Positions 32,992 to 49,695 of a DNA stretch of 64,000 nt are shown piece after piece (position 1 is the first letter of the stretch; each line of letters opens with the position of its first letter). The notes beneath the pieces were generated by a model that ran no database searches, had not been told where the DNA came from, and worked only from the letters and a program-made list of their open reading frames with translations. Source of the DNA: Fundidesulfovibrio putealis DSM 16056 (GTDB lineage Bacteria > Desulfobacterota > Desulfovibrionia > Desulfovibrionales > Desulfovibrionaceae); contig NZ_AUBQ01000014.1 of NCBI RefSeq assembly GCF_000429325.1, positions 1 through 64,000 on the forward strand, given 5' to 3'. A program made the position numbers and the translations under genes.

Positions 32992-33198
32992 GCACGGCCT
33001 CCTCTTGGGCGGCTTGCAAGAATGGTTCAAATTGCTGGCGTATTTATACGAGCAATTAAAAGAGACCAGGCCGGAACGGCCTTTGCGACAAGACTGTCTT
33101 GAATTTTAAGACTAAGAACAGGTCCGGAAATACAGGATTCACTCTCGCTTCAGCCCCTCCCAGACAATGAAACGATGCAATTACAGATACTTAACATA

Positions 33199-33258: not shown

Positions 33259-34176
33259 ATGAAAAGAACCCTGTCGATGCTCATCGCCTGTTTCACAGTA
33301 ATCTCAGCAGTTTGTGCGCAGGCATCGACCTATGAATTCAAGGACAGCGATCCCACGGTCATTTTTTGGCCAGACTTCCAGGCCTCAGCCGCCAACAACC
33401 GACACAATCAGAACAGTACGGATGTGATTGGCGATCCACAGATCACAGGCGGCACGTTTAACTTTTCCGGCCATTCGCTCCAATCCGTCGCCTTGAACTA
33501 CACCTCCACCAGCAACGTCCTTGTCCCAGCAGATTGGTTCTTCGACTTCAATAACGACAGCCAGTGGGATTATGTCTTCCACAACAGCAATACCAACTAC
33601 AAAAATGCCGACAACTACAGAATCTATGACATCTCCGGCCTGCATATGTCCATAGACGGGACCACTGTCTTCACGGTGAACGGTGCGTCCATCGAAAAAA
33701 TCGTCGCCGCCCCGAGCGACGGAACGGACACCATGGGGAAGTCGACGGTCCACGGTGGCTATGACTACTCCCAGTGGCCCGGCGGCTATTACGGACGTTA
33801 CGACCACCCCGTCCGCATCGACGACAGGCTCCTCGACCCGCGCAACGCCATCGCCATAAAGGACCAGGCCGTAACAACCAGCCTCATAAACCCCGTCCAG
33901 CTCATTGGCAGCATCTCCTTCAATGGCTGGGACGACGCAATCAACAAGTCCACCGGCTTCAATACCGCCATATGGGACCTTGGCATGCCTGGCCTGAACC
34001 TGGATCAGTACAGCGGCAAGACCTTCACCTACGCCTATGCCATGCTGTGCGCCAACGACGTGGTCTACGGCACGGCTCCGGTGCCGTCTCCCGAACCTGG
34101 GACAATGCTTCTCATGGCTGCCGGAGGACTTGGCGTGATCCTCCTGAACCGCAGGGCCAAAAGAACCAGGCTGTAA
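33259..34176 (+). CDS. PEP-CTERM sorting-domain protein
   Basis: This 305-residue secreted protein has a signal peptide (KRTLSMLIACFTVISAVCAQA, about 2-22) and a long beta-rich, Asn/Asp/Tyr-rich body without a family I recognise. The C-terminus is VPSPEPGTMLLMAAGGLGV, then ILLNRRAKRTRL, an exosortase signal. It is preceded by a sigma-54 promoter and closed by a strong terminator, so it is a single-gene unit. Probable role: cell-surface or matrix protein released after sorting. Confidence 0.9.
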   Translation: MKRTLSMLIACFTVISAVCAQASTYEFKDSDPTVIFWPDFQASAANNRHNQNSTDVIGDPQITGGTFNFSGHSLQSVALNYTSTSNVLVPADWFFDFNNDSQWDYVFHNSNTNYKNADNYRIYDISGLHMSIDGTTVFTVNGASIEKIVAAPSDGTDTMGKSTVHGGYDYSQWPGGYYGRYDHPVRIDDRLLDPRNAIAIKDQAVTTSLINPVQLIGSISFNGWDDAINKSTGFNTAIWDLGMPGLNLDQYSGKTFTYAYAMLCANDVVYGTAPVPSPEPGTMLLMAAGGLGVILLNRRAKRTRL

Positions 34177-34207
34177 AGGCCTTCGACAAATCGTCGAGTT
34201 TATTTAC

Positions 34208-34237
34208 AAACCCGGAGGTAAACACGCCTCCGGGTTT
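34208..34237 (+). terminator. terminator of the second PEP-CTERM gene
   Basis: AAACCCGGAGG (34208-34218) and CCTCCGGGTTT (34227-34237) form an 11-bp stem with an 8-base loop, followed by a T-rich tail (TCTCTTTTC). Confidence 0.88.
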
Positions 34238-34362
34238 TCTCTTTTCCCTCCACTGACACTTCCAGCATTCCCATCTCTTCCCATTGTCTGCACTGGACGA
34301 AGCCGCAAAAGTATTGCTAGGGATTTCCCACCCTTTTGCAACTCCGGAACTGAAGGCACACA

Positions 34363-35181
34363 ATGATTCAGGAATGGTTCTGGGCGCGAACCGCGCAAGC
34401 CGCACCACTCGCACGGAGACTCGGGTATGTCCGGGAACATCTCCGGCAAAAAGCCCGCTGGATGCGAAACGTCCAGGCGTGGCTGCCTCATCTGGAAAAA
34501 TCCAAGGCTTTCATCCGGAATACAATCCAACAGTGCTCCGGAAACGACATGGTGGTCGTCGCCGGCTCAGGCATGTGTCTGGACATCCCCCTGGAAGAGT
34601 TGTCGGCGACATTCAAGAAGGTCCTGCTGGTGGACCTCGTGCACCCGCGCGAGGTTGTGCTTCTTGCCGGAAAACTCGGGAACGTTCATCTCTGTCTGCA
34701 TGACCTGACCGGCATCCTGCCCGCTGTAGCCGGAGCCCTGGACGGCGGCGGCCGCATGCCGCTCGAATCGATGGGGCGGGCAGGCCCCGAAGCGCTCGCC
34801 AGGGAGTTCCCGAAGCTGGCTGACGCCGACCTCGTCATCTCAGCGAACACCCTGGCCCAACTCCCCCTCATCCCGATGGAACGCCTGTGGGCCACGGGCA
34901 TATACAACGACTGCGAACTTGAAACGCTCGCATCAAATCTTGTGGCCGGCCACATTGCATGGCTCCGGTCGTTCGCATGCCCGACCGCCCTGCTCACGGA
35001 CCTGTTCTGGATCAGCCTCAGCGAGGAGATCGCCCAGACCACCTCTCCCCTTTACGGAGCGCCCCTGGGAGAACCCCAGGAACGCTGGGAGTGGCGGATC
35101 GCCCCAAGGCCGGAAGCGCATCCCGACCGTGACATCCTGCATATTGTCGGTGCGTTCCTCTTCCCTTCCCAGGCACGCTAG
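34363..35181 (+). CDS. uncharacterised protein with a Rossmann methyltransferase-like core
   Basis: This 272-residue soluble protein has MVVVAGSGMCLDIPLEEL (about 63-80), which looks like the glycine-rich motif I of class I SAM-dependent folds, followed by VLLVDLVHPRE as the second strand with acidic end. ADLVISANTLAQLPL (about 155-170) could be motif IV. I do not recognise a named family or a substrate. It begins about 125 bp after the terminator and has GAAGG before the ATG. No promoter is evident. Confidence 0.6.
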   Translation: MIQEWFWARTAQAAPLARRLGYVREHLRQKARWMRNVQAWLPHLEKSKAFIRNTIQQCSGNDMVVVAGSGMCLDIPLEELSATFKKVLLVDLVHPREVVLLAGKLGNVHLCLHDLTGILPAVAGALDGGGRMPLESMGRAGPEALAREFPKLADADLVISANTLAQLPLIPMERLWATGIYNDCELETLASNLVAGHIAWLRSFACPTALLTDLFWISLSEEIAQTTSPLYGAPLGEPQERWEWRIAPRPEAHPDRDILHIVGAFLFPSQAR

Positions 35182-35229
35182 ACCGCGCCACTCCTCGGAT
35201 TGAAACTCTGGAAAGGAATCCGACATCCT

Positions 35230-35247
35230 GTTGTAACTTCTTACAAC
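35230..35247. repeat. inverted repeat abutting the PilZ-gene sigma-54 promoter
   Basis: GTTGTAA (35230-35236), 4-base spacer, TTACAAC (35241-35247) is a perfect dyad that ends directly before the -24 element. It contains TGTAA-N4-TTACA. Its position would suit a repressor more than a distant activator site. Confidence 0.5.
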
Positions 35248-35264
35248 TTGGCCGGATGTTTGCA
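35248..35264 (+). promoter_or_regulatory. sigma-54 promoter of the PilZ gene
   Basis: TTGGCCGGATGTTTGCA has correct GG-N10-GC spacing, a perfect TTGCA at -12 and two mismatches in the -24 half (CGG for ACG). The predicted start near 35275 leaves an 80-base leader to the ATG at 35355. Confidence 0.7.
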
Positions 35265-35354
35265 AATTCACGGGACGCCAGAGGCCTGGGAAGGCGCATT
35301 CCCTGCCAAACCCATCCATTTCGCGCATGGCATGTTTCTTGAAAACAATTGTTC

Positions 35355-35918
35355 ATGCTTAGGGAAGAACTTTTAATACAAAACTCCATGGTTCCAACTC
35401 ACCAGCCAAAATCCAAACTGGATAAGATCACAATCTGTTTTGATCTATCCACCCAATTGGCGCTCAGGCTTAGACAGCACTCACAGCAAACAAAAAAAGC
35501 TCAGAATTCTCTCCTCAATTCGATCATCGAGTCCTATTTTGCGAATATCGACAATGAACACAATCATCAGAACGCCAGAGACTTCCGGAAATTCATACGC
35601 AAGGACATCTCAATACCTGCTGTCATTGAACTCAAACTCACGACAAACGAAACGCAGTACAAGCCTGTGCATATATTCAACATATCAAATGGTGGCCTTG
35701 GCATCAGAATGGAAGAAAAGAGCACTCGTGTTCTTGAAAACATAAACAAGCAGACGCCGTTTCTGATCATTTTTTGCATTCCTACACCAGAACAGATCGT
35801 TCAGATTTTATGCCGCCCTGTTCACGTCACACTCAATGCCGTCACTGAAATAGGAGCGGCATTCCTCAAAATCCCCGAGTCTCTGCGCACGACGCTCAGT
35901 CGCCAGTTCGAATTTTAA
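35355..35918 (+). CDS. PilZ domain protein (c-di-GMP receptor candidate)
   Basis: This 187-residue protein has an N-terminal helical part (LDKITICFDLSTQLALRLRQ, then an NSIIESYF helix resembling a ribbon-helix-helix-like segment) and a C-terminal PilZ domain. The PilZ part has RKFIRKD as the RxxxR loop and NISNGG as the N-x-S-x-x-G strand, so c-di-GMP binding is plausible. Coding GC is lower than in the neighbours. The start is uncertain: ATG 35355 or ATG 35388, neither with a strong ribosome site. Confidence 0.75.
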   Translation: MLREELLIQNSMVPTHQPKSKLDKITICFDLSTQLALRLRQHSQQTKKAQNSLLNSIIESYFANIDNEHNHQNARDFRKFIRKDISIPAVIELKLTTNETQYKPVHIFNISNGGLGIRMEEKSTRVLENINKQTPFLIIFCIPTPEQIVQILCRPVHVTLNAVTEIGAAFLKIPESLRTTLSRQFEF

Positions 35919-36000
35919 GCCGTCTCGTTTTTTCAGACTGACACCCCTATTTTCGTGTTTCTTGCATTGACCGATTCTAAATGCACACGTAAATTGAGCC

Positions 36001-36029
36001 TTGACTAGAACAGCGCCCCGCGCAGGATA
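36001..36029 (+). promoter_or_regulatory. candidate sigma-70 promoter of the sigma-54 activator gene
   Basis: TTGACT (36001-36006), 17-base spacer and AGGATA (36024-36029) is the best sigma-70-like pair in the 177-bp gap between the PilZ gene and the activator gene. The -10 match is poor. Confidence 0.35.
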
Positions 36030-36053
36030 AGAGATGTTCAATATATAGCATCT

Positions 36054-36083
36054 TTCGGACCATGCATGATTCCATGGTCCGAA
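36054..36083 (+). promoter_or_regulatory. 11-bp inverted repeat in the leader of the sigma-54 activator gene
   Basis: TTCGGACCATG (36054-36064) and CATGGTCCGAA (36073-36083) are perfect inverted copies with an 8-base spacer. The right arm runs into GAAGAGG (36081-36087), the ribosome binding site of the gene. It can act as an operator for autoregulation or as an RNA hairpin that hides the ribosome site. Confidence 0.65.
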
Positions 36084-36095
36084 GAGGTTTCTCCG

Positions 36096-37526
36096 ATGGC
36101 CAATGTCGTTGTATTCGAAAAAAGCCCTGATCTTTTTCACGACATACTCGACATCTCTCGAGGACTGCCGCATTCCATTACACGTATCACGAATTTCAAT
36201 GAGATTATCGACGACGACCACAGTCTAAAAACAGACCTGCTTGTCCTCAACAAGACAGGGAACATACCGCTTGCCAAGTTGTACCCGCGCATCACCGGGA
36301 TGCACACCCCACCGAAAGTCCTTGTAGTTGTTGACAAACCTGACATCACGGAACTGGAATTCGTTCTCCGCGAAGGTGCGCTGGACTACATCCAGCGTGA
36401 CAACGCCATTGAGCATCTTCAGGCCCTGCTGACCAGGCTCGACGGGGTGCTTTTCGAGGAGGAACTGTCCTGGGCGGACGTCGGGGAGCGATTCCATATC
36501 TTCGGCTCCTGCTCAGAAATGCGCAAATGCCTGAAAACAGTAGCAAAAGCCAGCAAGAGCGACGTCTCCGTCCTGATCCACGGAGACACCGGAACGGGCA
36601 AGGAACTCTTTGCCCGGGCCATCCACGGCCTGAGCGAGCGCCGCAACGAGAACCTCATCGTGGTAGACTGCGCTTCGCTTCCCGCGACACTCGTGGAGTC
36701 CATCCTCTTCGGTTATTCCAAGGGCGCCTTCACCGGAGCGGACTCCAAAAGCGAAGGCCTGGTCATGCGAGCCCACAAGGGCACACTCTTCCTGGACGAG
36801 GTTTCCGAGCTCCCCATTGACCTTCAAAAGAACTTCCTGCGCGTTTTGCAGGAGCGCCGCTTCCGCCCTGTGGGAGCAAAAAGCGAAGTCGAGAGCGATT
36901 TCCGGCTTGTCGCAGCCACCAACAAAGACTTGTCACAAATGGTCAAGGAAGGCCTCTTTCGTGCCGACCTGCTCTATCGCATCCAGTCGCTCAAGCTCAA
37001 TCTGCCGCCGCTGCGCGAACGACGCGAAGACCTGATCGGCCTGGCCAACCAGCTGCTGCTGAAATCCTGCGAGAAAAACCGGGTCCCCATGAAGAGTTTC
37101 TCCAAGGAATTCCTGGAAATCCTGCGCAGGCACGATTGGCCCGGCAACGTTCGCGAGCTTGAGAACGTGCTCGATTCCGTGGTGGCGATCTCGCACAACC
37201 AGCCGATCATCTACCCGGAGCAGTTACCTTTTTATATTCGGGTCAAAGCCGCCAAACGCTCGCTGGGGCAAGAGGGGACCCCTGCGCCACGGGTTGACCC
37301 CATGCAGGAACCCACCCGGGAATGGTCCGGCCGCCCCCTGCCCAGCTACAAGGCTTACCGCAACGAGCTCCTGGAATCCATGGAGCGCCAGTACTTCCGG
37401 GAGCTTCAGCGCTCCAGCCGGGGGGACATCGCAAAAGCCATGAAGATGGCCAACCTGTCCAGGGCGCGCTTGTACGAGTTCTACAAAAAATACAATCTGA
37501 CCGGAGCGAACAAGGACGAGCACTGA
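36096..37526 (+). CDS. sigma-54-dependent activator with degenerate receiver domain
   Basis: This 476-residue protein has a receiver-like domain (about 1-125) lacking key residues: the acidic pair is replaced (VVVFEKSP) and the phospho-Asp position reads LLVLNKTG. The AAA+ domain (about 135-375) is intact with Walker A GDTGTGKE, the sigma-54 contact loop GAFTGA, and FLDEVSELP. A Fis-type helix-turn-helix lies at the C-terminus (IAKAMKMANLSRARLYEF). It should activate sigma-54 promoters without phosphorylation. ATG 36096 is chosen for the GAAGAGG 9 bases upstream. A -24/-12 promoter lies 15 bp after its stop. Confidence 0.9.
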   Translation: MANVVVFEKSPDLFHDILDISRGLPHSITRITNFNEIIDDDHSLKTDLLVLNKTGNIPLAKLYPRITGMHTPPKVLVVVDKPDITELEFVLREGALDYIQRDNAIEHLQALLTRLDGVLFEEELSWADVGERFHIFGSCSEMRKCLKTVAKASKSDVSVLIHGDTGTGKELFARAIHGLSERRNENLIVVDCASLPATLVESILFGYSKGAFTGADSKSEGLVMRAHKGTLFLDEVSELPIDLQKNFLRVLQERRFRPVGAKSEVESDFRLVAATNKDLSQMVKEGLFRADLLYRIQSLKLNLPPLRERREDLIGLANQLLLKSCEKNRVPMKSFSKEFLEILRRHDWPGNVRELENVLDSVVAISHNQPIIYPEQLPFYIRVKAAKRSLGQEGTPAPRVDPMQEPTREWSGRPLPSYKAYRNELLESMERQYFRELQRSSRGDIAKAMKMANLSRARLYEFYKKYNLTGANKDEH

Positions 37527-37540
37527 TCACACGGATTAAA

Positions 37541-37557
37541 TTGGCATGATTTTGGCT
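37541..37557 (+). promoter_or_regulatory. sigma-54 promoter of the FeeM-like gene
   Basis: TTGGCATGATTTTGGCT has exact GG-N10-GC spacing with two mismatches to TTGGCACG-N4-TTGCW. The predicted start near 37568 makes the ATG at 37546 untranscribed, so translation should begin at 37594. It sits just after the gene for a sigma-54 activator, the likely regulator. Confidence 0.75.
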
Positions 37558-37593
37558 GGTGGTATTATTTTTACCACAACCCAGGTGTACGGA

Positions 37594-38523
37594 ATGCAAC
37601 AAATCATGATCTCAAATCCATCCCCCCCTCCCCCGCCTCCGCCCTCGCCCAGCGTATTCTCTGGCGGGGTTGAACGTCGGCGAACAATCCGCATACGCCG
37701 ATCGGCCCTGCTTGATGCAAAGCTCGAAACACTTGACCGCCCCAGCATCAAAATTGCCGAAACTCTTGACGAGTACATTCAGGCGTTCACCGTACTTCAC
37801 GACGTCTACCTCGCTTCCGGCTACATCAGCGCGCCTGCGCCGTACGGATTCAGTTTCGGACTGCACCACCTGTTGCCCAAGAGCTGTGTCTTTGTCTTCA
37901 AGTCGTATCTTACCGTGCTGTCGACCATGAGCTACATCCCTGACACCCATCGCTTCGGCCTGCCCATGGACGACCTCTACAAGCCAGAGCTCGACTCACT
38001 GCGCGATGCAGGACGCAAGGTGGTGGAACTTGGCTCCCTGGCCACGCTCCCGCAGCGCCGCATGCAGAATCTCATTGTGTTTCTTGCCAAAGCAATCTTT
38101 CGATATGCCCTTTCCACAAAAGCAGACGACTTGTGCATAATGGTTAATCCAAAGCACGTCAGATTTTATGAATCAATTTTCCTATTTGAACCATTTGGTG
38201 AAGAGCGACACTACGAAAAAGTGAACGCTCCGGCGGTTGCACTTCGCGTCAATATGCAAAAAATTGAGCCCTCACTCTACGAGGCCTACGGGAATGCGGA
38301 CTTCGAGACAGATTTACACTCGTTCTTCGTCAAGATGAATTCGCATGTCATTGATGAAGACATCAGGGTGGAAAATGCGGAGAAGAACATGCCGCTCGAA
38401 TCCGAGATCGCAAGAAAGCTGTTCACCTCCAAGCCAGACCTGTTGAAATCTCTTCCCGACGAACAGCGTATTGCCCTAGAATCCCTCTACCATAAGGCAT
38501 TGTACGCAGGACAACGTTCATAA
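37594..38523 (+). CDS. N-acyl amino acid synthase (FeeM-like) GNAT-fold protein
   Basis: This 309-residue protein begins with a Pro-rich stretch (SPPPPPPPSPS) and a basic segment (RRRTIRIRR). The core (about 50-230) has DEYIQAFTVLHDVYLASGYI, the substrate region SYIPDTHRFGLPMDDLYKPELD, VVELGSLATLP, and a late MVNPKHVRFYESIFLFEPFG. This is the pattern of FeeM-type N-acyl amino acid synthases and exosortase-associated acyltransferases, relatives of acyl-homoserine lactone synthases, which use acyl-ACP. The start at 37594 is set by the sigma-54 promoter and AGGTG. The C-terminal 80 residues are not part of the core. The amino acid substrate cannot be read from sequence. Confidence 0.78.
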   Translation: MQQIMISNPSPPPPPPPSPSVFSGGVERRRTIRIRRSALLDAKLETLDRPSIKIAETLDEYIQAFTVLHDVYLASGYISAPAPYGFSFGLHHLLPKSCVFVFKSYLTVLSTMSYIPDTHRFGLPMDDLYKPELDSLRDAGRKVVELGSLATLPQRRMQNLIVFLAKAIFRYALSTKADDLCIMVNPKHVRFYESIFLFEPFGEERHYEKVNAPAVALRVNMQKIEPSLYEAYGNADFETDLHSFFVKMNSHVIDEDIRVENAEKNMPLESEIARKLFTSKPDLLKSLPDEQRIALESLYHKALYAGQRS

Positions 38524-38599
38524 CCAGCCCACCGGAGGCAACGAGGACCTGGATGTTCAAAAGGATAATTGTGACTCCTCCAAGAAGTGCCTGCTAGCC

Positions 38600-40150
38600 A
38601 TGGCTGACATCATGGACATTGATGCTTTCGTCAGTAAGGCCGCCGCAATCGTTGGCCCTGATTCCCTTTTCACGGACAACAGACACCTCGAACAACTGAC
38701 GGACAACAGCCTTGCGACGCCAAGAAGTCTGGCCTGCCACGTCCGCCCCAGGACGTCGGCCCAGGTGAAGGCATTGGTGGATCTGGCCCGCGAAACCGGC
38801 GTGCCGCTCTACCCGATCAGCCGAGGGCATAACCTGGGCTATGGGGACCGTTCTCCCGTCACGGATGGGAATGTGCTCCTGGATTTGTCCATGATGCGTG
38901 CAATCCGGAACTATGACGCAGAGCTGGGCCACGTGGAGATTGAGCCGGGCGTGTCCCAGCAAGACCTGTACGAGTTCCTGCAGGCCCAGAAACAGCCCCT
39001 CTGGATGGACACCACCGGAGCAGGCAAGAACGCAAGCATCATCGGAAACACCCTGGAAGGCGGATTTGGCCACACCCCCCTTGGCAATCACCGGGAGGAG
39101 TTTGCCGACGCCGAGGTCGTACTTGGAACGGGCGATATAATCCGGACCGGGATATTCCCCAACCTCGGTCCGGACGTAAAAGGAATTTTCGTCCAATCGA
39201 ACTTTGGCATCGTCACGGCAATGCGCATTCCGCTCATGCCTGTTCCCGAACACTTCGAATCGTTCGTCATCAAGGCGCACTCAAAAGACTCGCTCCCCGA
39301 CATAGTCAATGTGCTCCGCAGAATGCGCCTTGAAGGGATCGTGCGCAGCTGCGTCCATATCGCGAACCCGATGCGCTATCTCATTTCCTCAAAACTCTGC
39401 CCGGCAGAATACGCCAACACACTCCTCGACGACGACGACGCGATTCGCATCATGTCCTCCCCGCTGCTCTCAGTGGGCCAATGGAGCGCCGCAGGCGGGT
39501 TCTATGGCCTGCGCAAGACCGTAAAAGCCCACAAGTCCACTTTGAAGCGCGCCTTCAAGGGGATCGCCACCGTACAATTCTTCAGCCGTAAGACGATAGA
39601 CCGTTTGTCCGCCATCTTCCAGACCATGTCGGTGGTTCCGATTCCTTTCTTCAGGAAGGTCTCCGAGTCCCTGGATTCCTTCAGGAGCATCCTCGACATG
39701 ATGATGGGGATTCCCACAGACGAGGCATATAAAAACATACTATGGAGGGTCTCGAGCCTCAAGGACTTCGGGCTCATCTGGTTCGCTCCCGTTGTGGACG
39801 CCAAAGGGGACAAGGCCAGGCGGATCGTCGAAATCGCCGCGCCGCTGTATCGCGCGCATGGCTTTGAGATGCCCCTCACCTTGACGCTGGTGTCGCCGAG
39901 CAGGCTTGTGGGCATCCTGAGCATCACCTTCAACAAGAATAATCAGGAAGAGAAGGACCGGGCACATTCGCTGTACAAAGCCCTCTATGCGGCGTTTTCA
40001 GCCGATGGCATTCACACATACAGGACCAGCATCATGCAGATGGCGGACCAGGACCTCATGCCTCCCTGGAAACGGGACTTCCACAACGTCCTGAAGCACG
40101 CTCTGGACCCCCAGGGAATCATAGCCCCTGGGCGATACGGCATGAAATAA
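38600..40150 (+). CDS. FAD-dependent oxidase of the vanillyl-alcohol oxidase / p-cresol methylhydroxylase type
   Basis: This 516-residue flavoprotein has an N-terminal FAD-binding PCMH domain (about 40-220; ISRGHNLGYGDRSP, MDTTGAGKNASIIGNTLEGGFGHTPLGNH). Its substrate domain ends in HALDPQGIIAPGRYGMK, a tail typical of VAO/PCMH enzymes. The family oxidises para-substituted phenols. It has no signal peptide. The gene lies 76 bp after the FeeM-like gene on the same strand, with no terminator between them. Taken with that neighbour, a phenolic N-acyl amino acid such as N-acyl-tyrosine is a reasonable guess for the substrate, but this is inference. Confidence 0.85.
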   Translation: MADIMDIDAFVSKAAAIVGPDSLFTDNRHLEQLTDNSLATPRSLACHVRPRTSAQVKALVDLARETGVPLYPISRGHNLGYGDRSPVTDGNVLLDLSMMRAIRNYDAELGHVEIEPGVSQQDLYEFLQAQKQPLWMDTTGAGKNASIIGNTLEGGFGHTPLGNHREEFADAEVVLGTGDIIRTGIFPNLGPDVKGIFVQSNFGIVTAMRIPLMPVPEHFESFVIKAHSKDSLPDIVNVLRRMRLEGIVRSCVHIANPMRYLISSKLCPAEYANTLLDDDDAIRIMSSPLLSVGQWSAAGGFYGLRKTVKAHKSTLKRAFKGIATVQFFSRKTIDRLSAIFQTMSVVPIPFFRKVSESLDSFRSILDMMMGIPTDEAYKNILWRVSSLKDFGLIWFAPVVDAKGDKARRIVEIAAPLYRAHGFEMPLTLTLVSPSRLVGILSITFNKNNQEEKDRAHSLYKALYAAFSADGIHTYRTSIMQMADQDLMPPWKRDFHNVLKHALDPQGIIAPGRYGMK

Positions 40151-40259
40151 TGCCGACGATACATATCCATGCGAATTGTCTTCCGTCATGGCGACCCGCA
40201 ATGAACAAGCTACGCTGCCCTATGATTTCATCCCCGTACAACCGGACTGGAGTAGATGA

Positions 40260-40937
40260 ATGACATTCATCGTCGACAAGCTCAAAGGTGTCGTATCACA
40301 CTACGAGGCGGACGGAATGCGCGGCATTCTTGATGCCGTCCGGACCAATATTTGGGAACGTAGGACATTCTTATTGTTTGCAATGAACATAGCAGACCAA
40401 CACTGGGACATTGATGGGAAATGTGGGAATCTGACTCTCCGAAAAGGCAATACTGGCGACATTGGAATGATAGTAGACTCTTGGCCTCGTGAATTTGAGC
40501 GTGTTTATAAAACAAGGAAAATTCTTGAAAATGAAATTACAAAGAGATTCAATGACAACATTCCATGCTTTGTAGCCACAGACAACGGATCTCTAGTCTC
40601 AGCCATATGGGGCACACCATGGAACTATACTTTCGATAAACTTAAAAACGTTACATCAGAGAACGCTACAGAACTCATCAATCTTTTCGTCAACCCCAAC
40701 TACCGGAAACTCGGAATAGGTTCGCAACTCATAAAATTCTCGATAATGCAAATGGCAAAAATTAACTACACATATGCCATGGGTAGAGTCCTACCGCACC
40801 GTACAGTGATACAGAAAGCACTCTACAACATTGGCTACTCCTGCCTTGGGCGTATGACGTACACCACCGTCTTTGGGAGTCGCTCCTGCCGCTTCGAGGA
40901 GGCGCAGCAGCAATCCGTACCGTCTTCATCCGCATAA
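40260..40937 (+). CDS. GNAT family N-acetyltransferase
   Basis: This 225-residue protein has a GNAT domain (about 55-210) with the acetyl-CoA loop YRKLGIGSQLI after LINLFVNP and a C-terminal LYNIGYSCLGR. The N-terminal 50 residues form a helical extension. Base composition is clearly more AT-rich than the flavin oxidase gene upstream (110-bp gap), suggesting separate acquisition. It may acylate a product of the neighbouring enzymes, but this rests only on position. Confidence 0.8.
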   Translation: MTFIVDKLKGVVSHYEADGMRGILDAVRTNIWERRTFLLFAMNIADQHWDIDGKCGNLTLRKGNTGDIGMIVDSWPREFERVYKTRKILENEITKRFNDNIPCFVATDNGSLVSAIWGTPWNYTFDKLKNVTSENATELINLFVNPNYRKLGIGSQLIKFSIMQMAKINYTYAMGRVLPHRTVIQKALYNIGYSCLGRMTYTTVFGSRSCRFEEAQQQSVPSSSA

Positions 40938-41312: not shown

Positions 41313-41343
41313 AAAAAAAAACGGGGTTGCCGAAGCAACCCCG
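41313..41343 (-). terminator. terminator of the third PEP-CTERM gene
   Basis: On the minus strand CGGGGTTGC (41343-41335), loop TTCG, GCAACCCCG (41330-41322) is followed by a T9 run (41321-41313). It is a very strong intrinsic terminator 20 bp after the stop. Confidence 0.93.
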
Positions 41344-41363
41344 CTTTGCCTTGCAGTGCTACT

Positions 41364-42170
41364 CTAGTTGGAGCGGCGGCTGCGCCTGCGCAGGAAGGCC
41401 GCGCCCAGAGCGCCGATGCCCAGCAGGGTCATGGTCGCGGGCTCAGGGGTAGCGTAGATGGTCATGTCGCCGGAGGACTTGACGGTCTGCTTGAAGGAGG
41501 CGCCGGACACATCGAAGGCCTTATCCAGGTTGATGCTGCCGTCCAGGGTGGACATGGCCACGACCAGGGGGGACAGTTCGTCGAAGAGGTCCTTGCCGTT
41601 GTAGAAGAACACGTTGTCAACCAGGACTTCCATCTGACCGAGCAGGTTGAAGGTACCGGTCGAGTAGCCGATCTTGTCAGCCTGGGGGATCAGGTTGATG
41701 CCGCCGCCGTCGGTCATGGTGACCTTGGCGATCTCGACAGCTCCGCCGCCGTTGTCGTACCACATGCTGACAACTTCGCCGGCCACGTACTTGTATTCGA
41801 ATCCGAGGGGGTTAACGCCGGCAGTGATCAGGCTGGTCACCACGCCGTCCAGGATGCCGTCATCGACCTTGAGGCCGATCACGTCGGTGCCAAGCATGTT
41901 GTGGTAGTCACCATTCTTGAAGTACTTGGCGGATTCGGCAACGTAGGTGTTAACGGTGGTCTGCTGGAACACATCGCCGATCTGAACGTCACCCGGGATT
42001 CCGGAAGCGGTGAACTGCTGCACGGTCGAGCCGCCAGCCATCAGCACGGTTTCAATGTCAGTGTAAACATTTCCACCCAGAGAGGAAAAGTCCAGGGTGT
42101 AAAACGCTTGAGCTTGAGTGCTCACGGCCAGGAAACAAACACACAGGAATAATCTGACAGCCTTTTGCAT
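41364..42170 (-). CDS. PEP-CTERM sorting-domain protein
   Basis: This 268-residue secreted protein has a signal peptide (QKAVRLFLCVCFLAVSTQAQA, about 2-22) and a beta-rich body with many Gly, Asp and Val. The end is ATPEPATMTLLGIGALGAA followed by FLRRRSRRSN, an exosortase sorting signal. ATG 42170 has GGAGG upstream. A sigma-54 promoter lies 31 bp upstream and a strong terminator follows, so it is a single-gene unit. No domain in the body is recognised. Confidence 0.92.
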   Translation of the reverse strand: MQKAVRLFLCVCFLAVSTQAQAFYTLDFSSLGGNVYTDIETVLMAGGSTVQQFTASGIPGDVQIGDVFQQTTVNTYVAESAKYFKNGDYHNMLGTDVIGLKVDDGILDGVVTSLITAGVNPLGFEYKYVAGEVVSMWYDNGGGAVEIAKVTMTDGGGINLIPQADKIGYSTGTFNLLGQMEVLVDNVFFYNGKDLFDELSPLVVAMSTLDGSINLDKAFDVSGASFKQTVKSSGDMTIYATPEPATMTLLGIGALGAAFLRRRSRRSN

Positions 42171-42200
42171 GGCGCAACCTCCATTTGTTTTCACTCATTA

Positions 42201-43726: not shown

Positions 43727-45100
43727 TTACTGATCGATCCCATGTTTTCTCAACAGGTCGTAAAATGTCGGCCGACTGATACCCAAGGTTTCTGCTGCTT
43801 TCACAATATTTCCGCCAGACCTGCTCAGGGCGGCCTCGACCAACTGTTTCTCAACCATGGACCTGGCTTCCTTCAGTGTGGTCACGGTTGGTATTGCCGA
43901 AACCGAATCACCGGCAAATACAGGCTCAAAACCGAAATCCGCCGAAGTGATCGAAGAACTCGTCGACATGACCACTGCCCGCCGGACCGAGTTTTCCAAC
44001 TCGCGAACGTTTCCAGGCCAGGAATGCCGAACAAGGGCGTCCAATGCGTCCTTGGAGAATGTCTTGTTCTTCACACCAAGACCTTCGCCGTGTTTGCGCA
44101 GGAAGTGCTCGGCCAGCAGCAGCACGTCCTGCCCTCTTTCGCGCAAGGGCGGCAACTTCAGGGTGACGACGCCAATCCTGTAGAACAGGTCCTCCCGAAA
44201 GGTTCCCGCACGCATGGCTTCCTGAATATCAATATTGGTCGCGGCAACGACACGGACGTTGACTTCAAGATTTTTGCGCCCGCCGACCCGCTGAAAGACC
44301 ATCTCCTGGAGAAACCGCAGCAGCTTGACCTGGAGGTTCGTCGGCAGTTCGCCGATTTCATCCAGGAACAGCAACCCTTTGTCTGCGTATTCCACCTTGC
44401 CGCGCACGGTGGAGACCGCGCCGGTGAAAGCGCCCCGTTCATGCCCGAAAAATTCGGATTCAATCAGGTTCTCAGGCACGGCTCCACAGTTTATGCACAC
44501 CATGGGCCCAGCCTTCCTTGGCGAAAGCTCGTGGATGGCCCTGGCGATAAGCTCCTTGCCCGTGCCTGACTCGCCCTGGATGAGCACCGGCACATCCGAG
44601 GCCGCGACCTTGCTGACGTTCTCCATCACCTCGCGCATCTGCTCGGATTCACCTACAATACCCGCTGGAGTCGCCTTCCTGCCGACGACCGGCTTGGGCG
44701 ACGTGCTCTCCTGTTCGATGTCGTAGAGGTGAAACGCCCTGCGCACCATGACCTTGAGTTCGTCAAGGTCGATGGGCTTCAGGAAAAAGTCGTACGCCCC
44801 CATGTCCACAGCCCTTCGGGCGTATTCCCGGGATTCGAAACCGGTGATGACGATGATCTTCGACGCCGGAGCTCTCTTGCGCAACTCTTCCAGGCAGGCA
44901 AACCCCTGCGACGCGTCCTCGGTTCGAGGGGGCAACCCCAGGTCGAGAGTGACCACTTGAGGGGAGGCTTGACGAAATTTCTCAAGAGCGTCCGCAACGT
45001 CCTGGGCAAACACCAATTGATACGGCTCGGAAGAGAGCCCCCATTTCAACTGCTGGCGGATATCCTCATTGTCATCAACTATGAGCAAGGTGCGATTCAT
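43727..45100 (-). CDS. prsR: PEP-CTERM system response regulator, sigma-54 activator
   Basis: This 457-residue protein has a complete receiver (IVDDNED, phospho-Asp in TLDLGLP, FLKPID), an AAA+ domain with GESGTGKE, GAFTGA and FLDEIGELP, and a Fis helix-turn-helix (IVKAAETLGISRPTFYDLL). The layout and context match PrsR of exosortase systems. It overlaps prsK by 4 bp. It is the last gene of the long operon. Expected targets are sigma-54 promoters of PEP-CTERM genes, two of which are in this window. Confidence 0.93.
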   Translation of the reverse strand: MNRTLLIVDDNEDIRQQLKWGLSSEPYQLVFAQDVADALEKFRQASPQVVTLDLGLPPRTEDASQGFACLEELRKRAPASKIIVITGFESREYARRAVDMGAYDFFLKPIDLDELKVMVRRAFHLYDIEQESTSPKPVVGRKATPAGIVGESEQMREVMENVSKVAASDVPVLIQGESGTGKELIARAIHELSPRKAGPMVCINCGAVPENLIESEFFGHERGAFTGAVSTVRGKVEYADKGLLFLDEIGELPTNLQVKLLRFLQEMVFQRVGGRKNLEVNVRVVAATNIDIQEAMRAGTFREDLFYRIGVVTLKLPPLRERGQDVLLLAEHFLRKHGEGLGVKNKTFSKDALDALVRHSWPGNVRELENSVRRAVVMSTSSSITSADFGFEPVFAGDSVSAIPTVTTLKEARSMVEKQLVEAALSRSGGNIVKAAETLGISRPTFYDLLRKHGIDQ

Positions 45101-47187
45101 GCGGCCTCCTTACCATCCAACGAAGCAGGCGCAGGCAGACGTACCGTGAACACGGACCCTTCCCCAGGGGTGCTGACGACTTCTATAGTCCCGCCATGAG
45201 CTTCAACTATCTGTTTGCACTGATACAACCCGATTCCCATTCCTTTGGCCTTTGTCGTCTTGAACGGTTTGAACAGGTTCTCGGTGATGAACTGGCTGGT
45301 CATCCCGGCGCCATTGTCCGTGATCCGGAAATACGGCGTGGTGTCTTCCCCGGTTTCAATCGTGATGGATGATCCCGCAGCGCTGGCTTCCCGGGCATTC
45401 AGGACCAGATTCAGTATGACCTTGTGAATCTGCGCCTTGTCCACGACTGCCTCGACAGAGGAGCTGACGATGCGCAGCCCTTCCATGGGAAGGTGCTTGC
45501 ACGTGTCTTCAACCAGCTGGCCGATATCGGCAGTTTCCAGGTTCAGGTTCTCCCTCGTCGGGAGTTGCCGCAATTGGGAGATCAACATGTGCATTTTTGC
45601 CACGGTGTTCTCCAGACTCTTCAGCATGTCGCGCTGGAATTCCGGCTCCTGAATGTAACGCTTGGCATTTTCGGTCATGAGCGTGAGTGTGTAAATCAGA
45701 TTCTTCAGGTCATGAACGATGAACGTGGAAACCTTGCCCATCACCTCCATGTCGCGCGCCTGGGACAGCAGGTCTGCCAGACGCAGATTCAGGAGCGCCG
45801 AACAGGCTTGCGTGGCCAGCGCCTGCATCAGGTCGTAATCCTCCTGGCTGAAGTCCTCTTTTTCATCCATGGGCTGGACAAGGAGCACAACGCCATCCAG
45901 CCGGTCCTCCTTCATCAGGGGCACGGCGAACATGGCCTTCGACTCGCTAAAGAACAATGCAACGTCCTCGTCAACGTTCTCCAATCCCTGCCGCAAATCG
46001 ATGGCGCAAGAGGATTCAGCTTCGTTTTGAGCGAATACCTGGGCTATTCCCAGCCTGGGCGGCTCCTGGTGAACCTCCCACCTGCTGACCGGAATCAGCG
46101 GCGCATTTTCGGACTCTTTCAGGTAGAGAACCGCCCCCCCCATCCCGAAGGTTTCGCAGAACCCCAACAGGACGGCCTGATGAAGATCTTCACGTGTGCG
46201 GGCATTGGCGAGGCGCTTGGTAAAGACCAGCCACTGAACGCGATAGTCATATTTTTCTTTATAAAAGTAGCGCTGGAGAACCCTGGTGAAACGGCGTCGG
46301 AAGCTGTCGGAGAGCAACAGCCCCAGTATGCCGACCCCGCCGACGAGTCCGAGCGCCAGCAGCATGGCCTTGGAGGTTGCCCCTCCCGTGAGGGTCATGG
46401 ACAAACCGAGCCCCCCCAGAAAGAGCAGGTACGCCCCAGCGCCAAACAGCACCAGCGACGTGCGCGCCAGACGCTTGGACACGGTCACCGGGCTCTCTCC
46501 GCCCCGGTACACCACCGAATACAGCATCAACGCCATGCCCACGCAGAAACCGATCTGCCGGGCGGGAGCCAGGCTGAAATCGATTGCACGATACAGCAGG
46601 CCAAGGCTCAAGGTGAAAATGTGCGCGGCCAGGATGGCAAACGCGCCGAGAATCGCATACTTGATGCGCCACCGCTGGCCATGGACCGCGTTGACCAGGG
46701 TTGCTTCCAGGCTGGTCAGGCACATGATCATTATCGCAAGGCTGACGGTCCGCAGGGCAAAACCGACCGTTGACAAGACAAACCCACCAACCACGTGCGG
46801 CGACGCCGGTGATACGAATAATGATGGATAGACGACGCTGAGCCCAAGGAGTCCCCCCAGCACGATGCTCACGACGATGACCGTCGGCCAGCCCAGCGTT
46901 TCTGTTTGCACGGAATCCGAGCGGCGTGCGTAACGCCTGCTGAACATAAGCCAGGCCAAGGCCCCCAGAAGCTCAAGAACCACGAACAAGCCCGTCAGGA
47001 CAACCCCGCGTTCATTGCTTGAAGCGAGGACCCCCAGCCAATCCACTCCGATAGACAGAAAAACGCCTGCTATCACGTAGCCCCGCACGCCTTTCCAGCC
47101 TGGCCTGAAGAACAGAGACAGGGACAGAGCGGCAGCAAGGCTTACGCAAAGTAACAACAGAATGCTTTGAACAGGGCCTGACGTCAC
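45097..47187 (-). CDS. prsK: PEP-CTERM system histidine kinase
   Basis: This 696-residue membrane kinase has about eight to ten N-terminal helices (1-300), a GAF-like region (about 320-460), then a histidine kinase core. The phospho-acceptor lies in FIVHDLKNLIYTL (His at about 497) and the ATPase part has NLVLNAREA, DNGAGM and GMGIGLYQCK. This matches PrsK, partner of PrsR. It lies 9 bp after the EpsI gene. Confidence 0.93.
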   Translation of the reverse strand: MTSGPVQSILLLLCVSLAAALSLSLFFRPGWKGVRGYVIAGVFLSIGVDWLGVLASSNERGVVLTGLFVVLELLGALAWLMFSRRYARRSDSVQTETLGWPTVIVVSIVLGGLLGLSVVYPSLFVSPASPHVVGGFVLSTVGFALRTVSLAIMIMCLTSLEATLVNAVHGQRWRIKYAILGAFAILAAHIFTLSLGLLYRAIDFSLAPARQIGFCVGMALMLYSVVYRGGESPVTVSKRLARTSLVLFGAGAYLLFLGGLGLSMTLTGGATSKAMLLALGLVGGVGILGLLLSDSFRRRFTRVLQRYFYKEKYDYRVQWLVFTKRLANARTREDLHQAVLLGFCETFGMGGAVLYLKESENAPLIPVSRWEVHQEPPRLGIAQVFAQNEAESSCAIDLRQGLENVDEDVALFFSESKAMFAVPLMKEDRLDGVVLLVQPMDEKEDFSQEDYDLMQALATQACSALLNLRLADLLSQARDMEVMGKVSTFIVHDLKNLIYTLTLMTENAKRYIQEPEFQRDMLKSLENTVAKMHMLISQLRQLPTRENLNLETADIGQLVEDTCKHLPMEGLRIVSSSVEAVVDKAQIHKVILNLVLNAREASAAGSSITIETGEDTTPYFRITDNGAGMTSQFITENLFKPFKTTKAKGMGIGLYQCKQIVEAHGGTIEVVSTPGEGSVFTVRLPAPASLDGKEAA

Positions 47188-47196
47188 ATTGATACC

Positions 47197-47829
47197 CTAC
47201 GAGGGGAGGTATTTCACAAGTACCGGCTGGATCGAACGCAGAAAATCCGTAGCGCTATCCGCAGCCGAGGCTTTATCGCCCGGCATGGCAACCGATATCC
47301 TGATGAAACTCGTGTCCCGTTTGCTGTTCTTGATGGAGTTCAACACCTCGCTGATCTTGAGGTCGTATTCATTGGAGACGACCTTCCCGCCGACCTGAAA
47401 CCAATAAATAAACAGATCGGCCACTTCCCCGTGCTGGTACACGGCCATCACTGCGTCCAGGTCCTTGCCGGCAATGGGAATGCTCTTCTTTTCGGAGGAC
47501 ACCTCGACCCAGCCTGACCCAGGAAGGCAATTGCGAGGGGAATGCAGAGGCCCGGCCTTGCTCGCCCCATCGTGGTAACCGACGTAGATGTCCGCGACCG
47601 TGCCGTCCGCCTTCTTGTATCGTCTCGCCATGTAGTCTGTAGGACGCAATATCTTCAAGGTTTCCGCATCGAACTGGGCGTCTCCAACCATGCGCCACTC
47701 TCCGATCACGGTGGGGAAATCCTCCAGGGGGATAGCCAACGGAGTCGGGCTGTCCTTGTGCGTCGCCATGAAGAAAGCAGCAGCGGCCAACAGCACATAG
47801 AGCGTCATGAATTTTAAGCTGCTGATCAT
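47197..47829 (-). CDS. epsI: exosortase-associated protein EpsI
   Basis: This 210-residue protein has an N-terminal membrane anchor (about 5-22) and a periplasmic domain with the EpsI pattern: VIGEWRM, then DIYVGYHDGASKAGPLHSPRNCLPGSGWV and LFIYWFQVGG. A conserved Cys is in RNCLPG. It is found beside, or fused to, exosortases. It overlaps the exosortase stop by 4 bp. Its biochemical role is not known to me. Confidence 0.92.
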   Translation of the reverse strand: MISSLKFMTLYVLLAAAAFFMATHKDSPTPLAIPLEDFPTVIGEWRMVGDAQFDAETLKILRPTDYMARRYKKADGTVADIYVGYHDGASKAGPLHSPRNCLPGSGWVEVSSEKKSIPIAGKDLDAVMAVYQHGEVADLFIYWFQVGGKVVSNEYDLKISEVLNSIKNSKRDTSFIRISVAMPGDKASAADSATDFLRSIQPVLVKYLPS

Positions 47830-48704
47830 ACGTTTATCTTCCTGAGCAAGAGATGGATCGCGAACAGCAAGACAATACCAGCTGCGAAAAAGGTCATTCC
47901 CGTAAACTCATGAAAGAAGCCCTCTGCGGCTGAGACTCCGATGTGCTGCGCCAACACGCCAGTCACGAACACACGCATGGCGTTCACGAAGATGGCCACG
48001 GGAACCGCCAGGACAGCCAGAAGAACGATATTCAGCGTCTTCTTTTCGAAAAGCAGTCCGATTGCGACGGCCAGCGCCAGCATGCTCACCAGAGACCGCA
48101 AACCGCTGCATGCGTCCACGACCTCCAGCGTTATATTGGGGAAAAGCAGCTGGTTGCCTTCCCGAAGAACCATCACGTTCACGAAATGCAGTGCCGCCAC
48201 GGCGGCCTTGGTCATGAACAGTTTGAGCGGCATCGACAGCGTGTCGTATATGATTGCCGGCACGGGCACCATGAACACCAGATACAGCAGCGCGGTGGAC
48301 AGCCCCTTCAGGACCTTGGTCCCGAAAAGCAGCAGGCAGGCGCCGAACAGCACCACCACGAGCGACATGCGGGTGGTGAAATACTCAGTTGCCAGCCAGC
48401 CCAGCAGCAACTGAGCCAGCCCCAGGCCCAGCAAGAACACTCCGGCCCAGGCCGGAGAGACTTCCAGTTCCGCGAGGGACTTGCGTCGCGTGTAGATGAT
48501 GTAGGCGGAAATGAACGGGACAATGAACCCGTGAGACGAGTTGTCGTCTATGCTCCAGACTTTGACCATGCCGCTCACCACGGGCGCGTAGGTGTACCCG
48601 CACAGCAGGGCTGCGAACAGCAGTTGAAACTTGTAGCGATGCAACGCCTGGACCAACGTCAGCCCCACGTTGGGCAGAATAGGAGACTGCTCAGTCGCTT
48701 CCAC
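47826..48704 (-). CDS. exosortase (EpsH/XrtA-type transpeptidase)
   Basis: This 292-residue membrane protein has about eight helices and the exosortase catalytic residues: Cys in VVDACSGLRSL, Arg in NAMRVF and His in FFHEFTG. It recognises PEP-CTERM signals at the membrane. The start is a GTG at 48704, 4 bp after the preceding stop and behind GGGAGGG; longer in-frame starts fall inside the upstream gene. The three PEP-CTERM proteins in the window are its likely local substrates. Confidence 0.94.
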   Translation of the reverse strand: MEATEQSPILPNVGLTLVQALHRYKFQLLFAALLCGYTYAPVVSGMVKVWSIDDNSSHGFIVPFISAYIIYTRRKSLAELEVSPAWAGVFLLGLGLAQLLLGWLATEYFTTRMSLVVVLFGACLLLFGTKVLKGLSTALLYLVFMVPVPAIIYDTLSMPLKLFMTKAAVAALHFVNVMVLREGNQLLFPNITLEVVDACSGLRSLVSMLALAVAIGLLFEKKTLNIVLLAVLAVPVAIFVNAMRVFVTGVLAQHIGVSAAEGFFHEFTGMTFFAAGIVLLFAIHLLLRKINV

Positions 48705-48708
48705 GACG

Positions 48709-49695
48709 CTACCCTCCCTGCCCGACAAACCAGGCAACGGTTCTGGCCAGACCATCCTCAAGCCCGACCATTGGCTTCCATCCAAGGACACGCCGCGCTT
48801 TCGAGGTGTCCGCATAGTTTCGCAGCATATCTCCCTGGCGGATTTCCCCATGCGCGACGCTCACATCCGGCACGCCCGCGGCAGCCAGCGCATCGCGCAA
48901 CAACTTTGCCAGGTGGAGCACTGTGGTTTCCTCTCCGGTGGCTATCTGAAAAGTCTCTCCGGCTGCCTGATCCTTCGTGGCGGACTGCCTTACCGCCTCG
49001 ACCAGGTCGTCAATGTACAGGAAGTCCCTGGTCTGGCCGCCGTCGCCGAACACTTCCATGGGCTGCCCTTTGAGCGCCCTGGAGAGGAAACTGGCCACAA
49101 CGCTGGACTTATGCCCTGAGTACGGCCCATACACATTGCTGAAACGCAAGCAGACGGTCGGCACGGCAAAACAGTTATGGTAGGCGCAGCAATAGCCTTC
49201 ACCGGCCATTTTGCTGGCGCCGTAGGGCGAAATCGGTCGGGGGACCACCGCCTCGTGAATTGGCGGCTGAGCCTCCCCGGCCGGAGCGCCGCTGGAGGCG
49301 AAGACAAAACGCCTCACGCCCGCGTGGCGCGCTCCCTCCAGACAGTTCACGGTGCCCACCACGTTTGCCTGACAGTCCCACTTGGGGTTCTTCACGGATG
49401 GCCCCACTCCGGTGTTGGCGGCCAGATGAACGACGCAGTCCGCGTTGGCGAAGGCGCGTTCCACTGCGGTTTCGTCCAGAATGTCGCCGGGAATGAGCTC
49501 CACCTCTCCCGAAGCCGGAAAAGCGGATACGTCTGCAGGGCCTGTCTCCGAGAAACGGCAGACCTTGGCCAGGTCATCACGGGTTCCCGTGGTCAGATTG
49601 TCCAGGACCCGCACGGCGTGGCCGCCTTCATGCAACAAGGAAGCTATGAGGTTGCGACCGATAAATCCCGCGCCCCCTGTAACGAGCCAGTTCAT
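48709..49695 (-). CDS. NAD-dependent nucleotide-sugar epimerase/dehydratase
   Basis: This 328-residue extended SDR protein has TGGAGFIG (NAD motif), SSGAPAGE as the catalytic Ser region, YGASK as the catalytic Tyr/Lys, and SNVYGPYSG with GDGGQTRDFLYIDD further on. This is the GalE/UDP-glucuronate-epimerase type. It overlaps the preceding gene by ATGA, which fixes the start at 49695. It probably makes an activated sugar for the polysaccharide. The exact reaction is not readable. Confidence 0.88.
   Translation of the reverse strand: MNWLVTGGAGFIGRNLIASLLHEGGHAVRVLDNLTTGTRDDLAKVCRFSETGPADVSAFPASGEVELIPGDILDETAVERAFANADCVVHLAANTGVGPSVKNPKWDCQANVVGTVNCLEGARHAGVRRFVFASSGAPAGEAQPPIHEAVVPRPISPYGASKMAGEGYCCAYHNCFAVPTVCLRFSNVYGPYSGHKSSVVASFLSRALKGQPMEVFGDGGQTRDFLYIDDLVEAVRQSATKDQAAGETFQIATGEETTVLHLAKLLRDALAAAGVPDVSVAHGEIRQGDMLRNYADTSKARRVLGWKPMVGLEDGLARTVAWFVGQGG

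Follow-up and report, generated by a model that had tools for sequence, protein, structure and literature searches.

We analysed a stretch of 64,000 nucleotides (the window; positions 1 to 64,000 of contig NZ_AUBQ01000014.1, forward strand) from Fundidesulfovibrio putealis DSM 16056 (genome G000). In this window, a gene for a FeeM-family N-acyl amino acid synthase is followed by a gene for a flavoenzyme of the vanillyl alcohol oxidase/p-cresol methylhydroxylase (VAO/PCMH) type, at the position where congeners carry a ThiF-nitroreductase. A VAO-type enzyme has displaced the usual second-step enzyme at an N-acyl amino acid locus. The features of this locus are as follows.

35349..35918, + strand: PilZ-domain protein (PF07238, 25 bits)
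36096..37526, + strand: sigma-54 activator with a degenerate receiver (sigma-54 interaction domain)
37542..37556, + strand: -24/-12 type element TGGCATGATTTTGGC, 15 bp past the activator stop, with equivalents in the congeners G006, G005 and G002
37594..38523 (open reading frame from 37546), + strand: FeeM-family N-acyl amino acid synthase with a proline-rich N-terminus (PF21926, PRK14852, PDB 2g0b)
38600..40150, + strand: VAO/PCMH-type flavoenzyme from a clade without characterised members (congeners have a ThiF-nitroreductase here)
40260..40937, + strand: GNAT acetyltransferase (PF00583, 37 bits)
41318..41347, both strands: terminator-like hairpin past the GNAT gene (terminator scan)

A first-pass annotation of this DNA had described the run from activator and -24/-12 element through FeeM, the VAO/PCMH-type enzyme and GNAT on one strand near an exosortase, and all of these parts are present in the window. 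It had also described the run as free of terminators. A plus-strand scan from FeeM to GNAT yields a single weak site at 39628, which lies inside the flavoenzyme gene, and the first strong site is the hairpin at 41318-41347. The intergenic gaps measure 76 bp between FeeM and the flavoenzyme gene and 109 bp between the latter and GNAT, and the FeeM-flavoenzyme locus is presumably co-transcribed.

The FeeM gene product matches Pfam PF21926 with 153.4 bits (cut-off 27) over domain positions 1-158 of 158, the N-terminal part of PRK14852 with 297 bits, and FeeM itself (PDB 2g0b) with an E value of 5e-13. Because the first ATG, at 37546, falls inside the promoter element, the start at 37594 is the likelier one. 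The flavoenzyme matches PF01565 with 88 bits, and its structure model has a predicted local distance difference test score (pLDDT) of 81.8 and a predicted template modelling score of 0.83, with pLDDT below 50 at residues 78-82 and 188-191. Among solved structures, those nearest to this model are the vanillyl alcohol oxidase nsVAO (9ffk), with Z 41.0 across 478 residues, and p-cresol methylhydroxylase (1dii), with Z 40.0. The model thus predicts a VAO fold with flavin adenine dinucleotide (FAD) and cap domains.

The displacement is seen against G006 (locus L128), a genome of the same genus whose assembly is 66% complete. G006 keeps the upstream order, with PilZ protein, activator and FeeM 94.7%, 96.0% and 88.6% identical, respectively, and window positions 33996-38411 share 83.8% DNA identity with it. 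The codon match runs to the last few codons before the FeeM stop and then ends. Past this break, G006 encodes a 669-amino acid ThiF-nitroreductase (PF00899 plus PF00881), whereas the window encodes the flavoenzyme and GNAT. The congeners G002 and G005 also have a ThiF-nitroreductase at the same place behind FeeM. Of the 6966 bp that G006 has from the break onwards, a search of the window's genome recovered a single stretch of 163 bp, on another contig. No full-length ThiF-nitroreductase was found in that genome either, where matches to the ThiF part occur elsewhere and lack the nitroreductase part, and a search of six congeners yielded neither the flavoenzyme gene nor the GNAT gene. The short match, of about 163 bp and 97% identical, pairs positions 488587-488748 of contig C28 in G000 with a site in L128 about 4.8 kb beyond the break.

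The same alternation of partners is seen in a family sample of 288 genomes, in which FeeM, defined by a match to PF21926 at E at or below 1e-10, occurs at 28 places in 27 genomes. One weak match (G294; 45 bits, and missed by our own FeeM profile) was dropped, which leaves 27 places. At 22 of these, FeeM is either fused to a ThiF-nitroreductase resembling OxzB/TrzS or followed immediately by one on its own strand, and four others (the window, G285, G243 and G015) adjoin a VAO-type enzyme. No place has both partners, and the remaining one, the second FeeM of the window's genome, is solitary. Searches of G000, G285, G243, G015 and G038 yielded no full-length ThiF-nitroreductase. The VAO-type enzyme (E at or below 1e-40) occurs in four of the 288 genomes, all of them FeeM-positive, a co-occurrence with the 27 FeeM genomes that has a hypergeometric probability of 6e-5, uncorrected for relatedness. 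The two genes are convergent in G285, G243 and G015 and co-directional in the window, so the two can be neighbours in more than one arrangement. In the wider order, FeeM lies about 5 kb from the VAO-type gene in G038 and 2-2.6 kb from it in G055. Thus, of the three-gene combination that the first-pass annotation had put forward for comparison among relatives, the FeeM-flavoenzyme pair is kept, in these four genomes and in several phyla, but the three-gene unit is not, GNAT being present in one of the 288 genomes, that of the window.

Two side observations concern FeeM in this sample. In G071, G074 and G077 (L131-L133), FeeM, ThiF and nitroreductase are fused in one protein of about 970-1100 amino acids. 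The solitary second FeeM gene of the window's genome lies on contig C4 (L125, 6676-7593), where neither a ThiF-nitroreductase nor a VAO-type enzyme was found within the surrounding 14 kb; a MurJ-like gene lies nearby.

In the FeeM tree, the window's protein pairs with that of G006 as its sister (support 100/99), and the FeeM of G285 falls in the same genus-level clade. A tree uniting the FeeM proteins of the window and G285 is rejected (p of the approximately unbiased test 0.014), a comparison made after the tree had been seen and with a long G285 row. The FeeM tree requires at least three changes of partner, and this number, like the place of the window, is unchanged when four long-branch rows are removed. 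In contrast, the VAO-type enzymes of the window and G285 are sisters (Shimodaira-Hasegawa-like approximate likelihood ratio test, SH-aLRT, 96). The idea that the two genes always travel together is therefore rejected. Given this discordance, the VAO-type enzyme probably became a partner of FeeM on more than one occasion, or was transferred from one FeeM locus to another.

Beyond the family, we examined the best 80 of 554 candidate relatives of the flavoenzyme from 84,980 species genomes, chosen regardless of their neighbours. A FeeM-superfamily acyltransferase is present in the flanks of 42 of these 80 loci, and in 30 of them FeeM or exosort_acyl is directly adjacent (less than 600 bp away or overlapping, by stop-to-stop frames), on the same strand in 29. 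By the taxonomy of the record titles, the adjacent loci belong to Pseudomonadota (17), Cyanobacteriota (3), Myxococcota (3, titled only Deltaproteobacteria), Thermodesulfobacteriota (2), Planctomycetota (2), Bacteroidota (1) and Candidatus Altimarinota (1), with one unplaced. The loci hold 54 such frames, and we scanned 36 acyltransferases, that of the window and 35 from the loci, a few of them up to 7 kb from the flavoenzyme. Of these, 33 have a PF21926 match, 18 a match to PRK14852 and 16 one to TIGR03694, the model for exosortase-associated acyltransferases. As a control, 26 loci of other FAD_binding_4 enzymes, with flanks of up to 1.5 kb, have no FeeM or exosort_acyl neighbour. Similarity to ThiF-nitroreductase (E at or below 1e-10) appears in the flanks of two of the 80 loci, both from Desulfacinum. 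A general linkage of the flavoenzyme to exosortases is not claimed, as a phmmer search with the window's exosortase matched two of the 80 loci.

Alternatively, the flavoenzyme might be independent of FeeM, a phenol-degrading enzyme acquired from elsewhere whose arrival next to FeeM broke the old pathway. In favour of this, neither it nor GNAT was found in the congeners searched, and 38 of the 80 loci have no recognised acyltransferase. We consider this distinctly unlikely, since adjacency to the FeeM superfamily recurs in Pseudomonadota, Cyanobacteriota, Planctomycetota, Thermodesulfobacteriota and Bacteroidota, and since the pair is found, in different orientations, in all four family genomes that have the enzyme. 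Moreover, a cytochrome c gene is within 1 kb of three of six plasmid-borne reference relatives and near one of the 80 clade loci. The clade is split from five of these six references (SH-aLRT 100), and the sixth, from Megaera, nests within it and lacks two of the three phenol-site residues described below. No open reading frame in the window that starts with ATG and has at least 70 amino acids carries a CxxCH motif, as would a PCMH-type cytochrome c subunit, and no relatives of the flavoenzyme were found among viral contigs.

The active site points to a phenolic substrate. Among 85 distinct members of the clade, Tyr81, Tyr474 and Arg475 are invariant (85/85). From alignment to nsVAO and VAD, we take these residues to be the counterparts of Tyr108, Tyr503 and Arg504 of VAO. 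The counterpart residues bind the phenolate in VAO, according to the available part of PMC5646868. Where an acid would stand beside flavin N5, 82 of the 85 members, the window enzyme among them, have Gly, two have Ala and one has Asp; at the neighbouring position, 81 of the 85 have Ala or Ser. The missing acid resembles the dehydrogenase branch of the family rather than the oxidase branch. The His position for covalent FAD attachment is occupied by that residue in 0/85 members and the Tyr position in 1/85. Because nsVAO also binds FAD non-covalently (PMC7617285, accessible portion), the missing covalent link does not exclude membership in the wider VAO/PCMH family. Compared with the known 4-phenol oxidases and dehydrogenases (VAO, EUGO, PCMH, M. 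flavus VAD and nsVAO), the window enzyme is alike in fold (Z 36-41) and in the phenol-site Tyr/Tyr-Arg, and nsVAO likewise lacks the covalent FAD residue. Its clade differs in forming a separate lineage without the His/Tyr FAD link, in having acyltransferase neighbours, and in its N5 pair, which is Gly with Ala or Ser as opposed to Leu with Asp or Glu, or Pro or Ile with a small residue.

We hypothesize, with slightly better than even confidence, that FeeM makes N-acyl-tyrosine and that the flavoenzyme dehydrogenates it, probably to N-acyl-dehydrotyrosine, replacing the usual desaturase. Specifically, FeeM would link a chain from acyl-acyl carrier protein to an amino acid; tyrosine, which the original FeeM protein acylates, is the likeliest. 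The flavoenzyme would then bind the phenolate of N-acyl-tyrosine through Tyr81, Tyr474 and Arg475 and take a hydride off the benzylic carbon, and the resulting p-quinone methide could settle to N-acyl-2,3-dehydrotyrosine. For a phenol-type flavoenzyme in the slot of a nitroreductase, desaturation of N-acyl-tyrosine by way of the p-quinone methide is the simplest expectation. We infer tyrosine as the substrate and an alkene, not an alcohol, as the exact product. Three observations strengthen the earlier proposal that a phenol-type oxidase acts on what FeeM makes: the pairing across phyla, the invariant phenol site and the position otherwise held by a ThiF-nitroreductase. As that proposal also suggested, the product might be a signal or matrix molecule.

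The quinone methide could also take up water. In 4-phenol oxidases and dehydrogenases, this intermediate rearranges or reacts with water (PMC7617285, in the part available), and a hydrated FeeM product would give N-acyl-beta-hydroxytyrosine, or cleavage to 4-hydroxybenzaldehyde and N-acylglycine, and thus another kind of product than the nitroreductase route yields. The pairing and the phenol site are the same for hydration as for dehydrogenation. However, the Asp of VAO, which takes part in base catalysis and enantioselective hydroxylation (PMC5646868, same portion), corresponds to the Gly found in nearly all clade members, and the displaced enzyme type is a desaturase. Hydration therefore seems unlikely.

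Desaturation in this slot fits what is reported for the displaced type of enzyme. In the TyzACB and TrzAS systems, a nitroreductase-superfamily oxidase desaturates the N-acyl amino acid in an O2-dependent reaction and ThiF cyclises it (PMC10404671, PMC12856293, available excerpts); N-acyl-Tyr is desaturated by the nitroreductase-type partner in the system studied in PMC10404671; and the ThiF plus nitroreductase gene pair marks dehydrotyrosine producers (PMC12479983, accessible text). In relatives, the ThiF-nitroreductase at the same position would be predicted to turn the FeeM product into an oxazolone by cyclisation and desaturation; with a VAO-type enzyme in its place, desaturation would remain and cyclisation would be lost. 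The reactions need not follow the order of the genes, and small phenols are substrates of characterised relatives, such that the flavoenzyme might act on free tyrosine or another phenol first and FeeM might then acylate the oxidised amine. This order is very unlikely, given that the displaced ThiF-nitroreductase type works after acylation in the studied systems.

Several observations weigh against dehydrogenation of N-acyl-tyrosine by a displacing enzyme. Of the two borders of the swap, only the left-hand one, at the FeeM end, is defined. G055 holds both the VAO-type enzyme and a ThiF-nitroreductase, on different contigs, and is an exception to strict exclusion. Neither the Asp base nor the residues for covalent FAD attachment are present in the flavoenzyme, and its activity may consequently be low or different. 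The strongest counter-evidence comes from Pseudoduganella (Massilia) umbonata, which is reported to make only saturated kyonggic acids (PMC12479983), yet carries the FeeM-flavoenzyme pair (L065); the genome was matched to the producer by species name and has three FeeM genes. The 38 loci without a recognised acyltransferase in their flanks, some of them on short contigs, also count here, as do the MMPL transporters (L068, L053) and MoaF (L116) that stand beside some of these enzymes. In a scan of 10 proteins from nine of the 38 loci, the other neighbours were a sub-threshold FeeM/Acetyltransf_5 match (L055), three proteins that matched nothing (L049, L058, L066), and weak DUF matches or an AAA ATPase.

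N-acyl amino acid loci of this kind are known; the VAO-type partner is undescribed as far as our searches of the open literature reach. The OxzAB, TyzACB and TrzAS acyl-oxazolone pathways resemble the window in that a FeeM-type N-acyltransferase is followed by a flavin-dependent oxidative enzyme, but they use a ThiF cyclase and a nitroreductase-superfamily oxidase, whereas the window has a VAO/PCMH-fold flavoenzyme. The stieleriacine, thalassotalic acid and kyonggic acid clusters for N-acyl (dehydro)tyrosines resemble it in their N-acyl amino acid synthase (NAS) and in the proposed product class. The available parts of the sources propose ThiF and nitroreductase for the 2,3-double bond and mention no VAO-type enzyme; they place the NAS of Stieleria maiorica near PEP-CTERM genes, as in the window. 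FeeM genes near exosortases were described by Craig, Cherry and Brady (2011, as cited in the available part of PMC7293339), and the window likewise has FeeM and an exosortase in one region. In the open full-text literature, with subscription papers outside its scope, we found no description of a FeeM-VAO/PCMH or exosortase-vanillyl pairing, and among the papers listed none mentions N-acyl-tyrosine and a VAO/PCMH enzyme together.

This clean exchange at one locus puts forward a second enzyme family as a candidate for the desaturation step, and suggests a second route to these lipids. The NCBIfam name of the exosortase-associated acyltransferases specifies no substrate, and the exchange suggests that theirs is phenolic. 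A broader proposal is that this VAO/PCMH-fold clade comprises, across phyla, dedicated N-acyl-tyrosine dehydrogenases that partner FeeM or exosortase-associated acyltransferases, and that it has repeatedly replaced the O2-using ThiF-nitroreductase in sulfate reducers as an O2-independent dehydrotyrosine route. We regard this as possible, though short of probable. If true, N-acyl-dehydrotyrosine lipids would be made independently of O2 together with the PEP-CTERM surface system.

Control of expression probably lies with the local sigma-54 activator and its promoter, which were passed on together with FeeM. The sigma-54 interaction domain of the activator scores 213 bits. Its N-terminal region has no match to Pfam Response_reg and, at a position judged by eye, reads LLVLNKTGN, with Asn at the usual phospho-Asp site. 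The element TGGCATGATTTTGGC has two mismatches to the -24/-12 consensus, and matches with up to three mismatches number 561 in the window against 647 expected from shuffles. The motif was therefore rejected as stand-alone statistical evidence, and the element is accepted because of its position and its equivalents in congeners. It is nearly unchanged in G006 and G005; the equivalent in G002 differs in sequence and is offset by one base in the alignment. A GG-N10-GC element with an adjacent activator is present in the window and in all three congeners compared. Sigma-54 control, which the first-pass annotation had made part of the combination, is thus not particular to it, as activator and promoter also accompany FeeM where the partner is a ThiF-nitroreductase.

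The same annotation had assigned GNAT a part in the pathway, with the enzyme further modifying the oxidised N-acyl amino acid in a third step. The short gap, shared strand and lack of a strong terminator between flavoenzyme gene and GNAT are compatible with this. However, GNAT has no match at E 1e-12 in the 287 other family genomes and none in the 80 flavoenzyme loci, and its guanine-cytosine content is 45.1%, as compared to 57.5% for the flavoenzyme gene. A three-step pathway is therefore highly improbable, and GNAT is probably a passenger that is incidental to the pathway.

The exosortase lies about 10 kb from FeeM, with PrsK/PrsR, EpsI and two PEP-CTERM proteins in the same neighbourhood.

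33259..34176, + strand: PEP-CTERM protein (profile match)
41364..42194, - strand: PEP-CTERM protein (profile match)
43727..45100, - strand: PrsR, PEP-CTERM system response regulator (TIGR02915, 604 bits)
45097..47187, - strand: PrsK, PEP-CTERM system histidine kinase (TIGR02916, 459 bits)
47197..47829, - strand: EpsI family protein (TIGR02914, 138 bits)
47826..48851, - strand: exosortase (TIGR02602, 193 bits against a cut-off of 105.6)

An exosortase (TIGR02602) is present in 26 of the 27 FeeM-positive family genomes, the exception being G015; in G285, a long distance separates the FeeM-flavoenzyme pair from the exosortase. Within the window, scans for Rfam families and tRNAs gave no matches.

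Other flavoenzyme loci deserve mention. FeeM stands directly upstream of the VAO-type gene, overlapping it or nearly so, in L065 (8974-11584), L069, L078, L085, L088, L089, L096, L109 and L112; these Oxalobacteraceae loci belong to Pseudoduganella, Duganella and Massilia, which are possible test hosts. In three Acidobacteriota loci (L049, 9034-9894; L058, 914-1714; L066, 9074-9925), a protein of 267-287 amino acids, a FeeM-like size, is encoded just upstream of the flavoenzyme and has no Pfam match. The MMPL transporters beside the clade in Desulfacinum (L068, 7611-9965) and Desulfobacter (L053, 2744-5008) may represent a second lipid context.

Within the window, a patatin-like phospholipase (31957-33030, - strand; PF01734, 108 bits), 93% identical in the syntenic G006 locus, is a conserved neighbour of the FeeM region. 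Sugar and glycosyltransferase genes lie past the PEP-CTERM/exosortase group, and in this sugar cluster the product of 49692-50840 (- strand) resembles UDP-sulfoquinovose synthase, with 426 bits, below the cut-off of 575.

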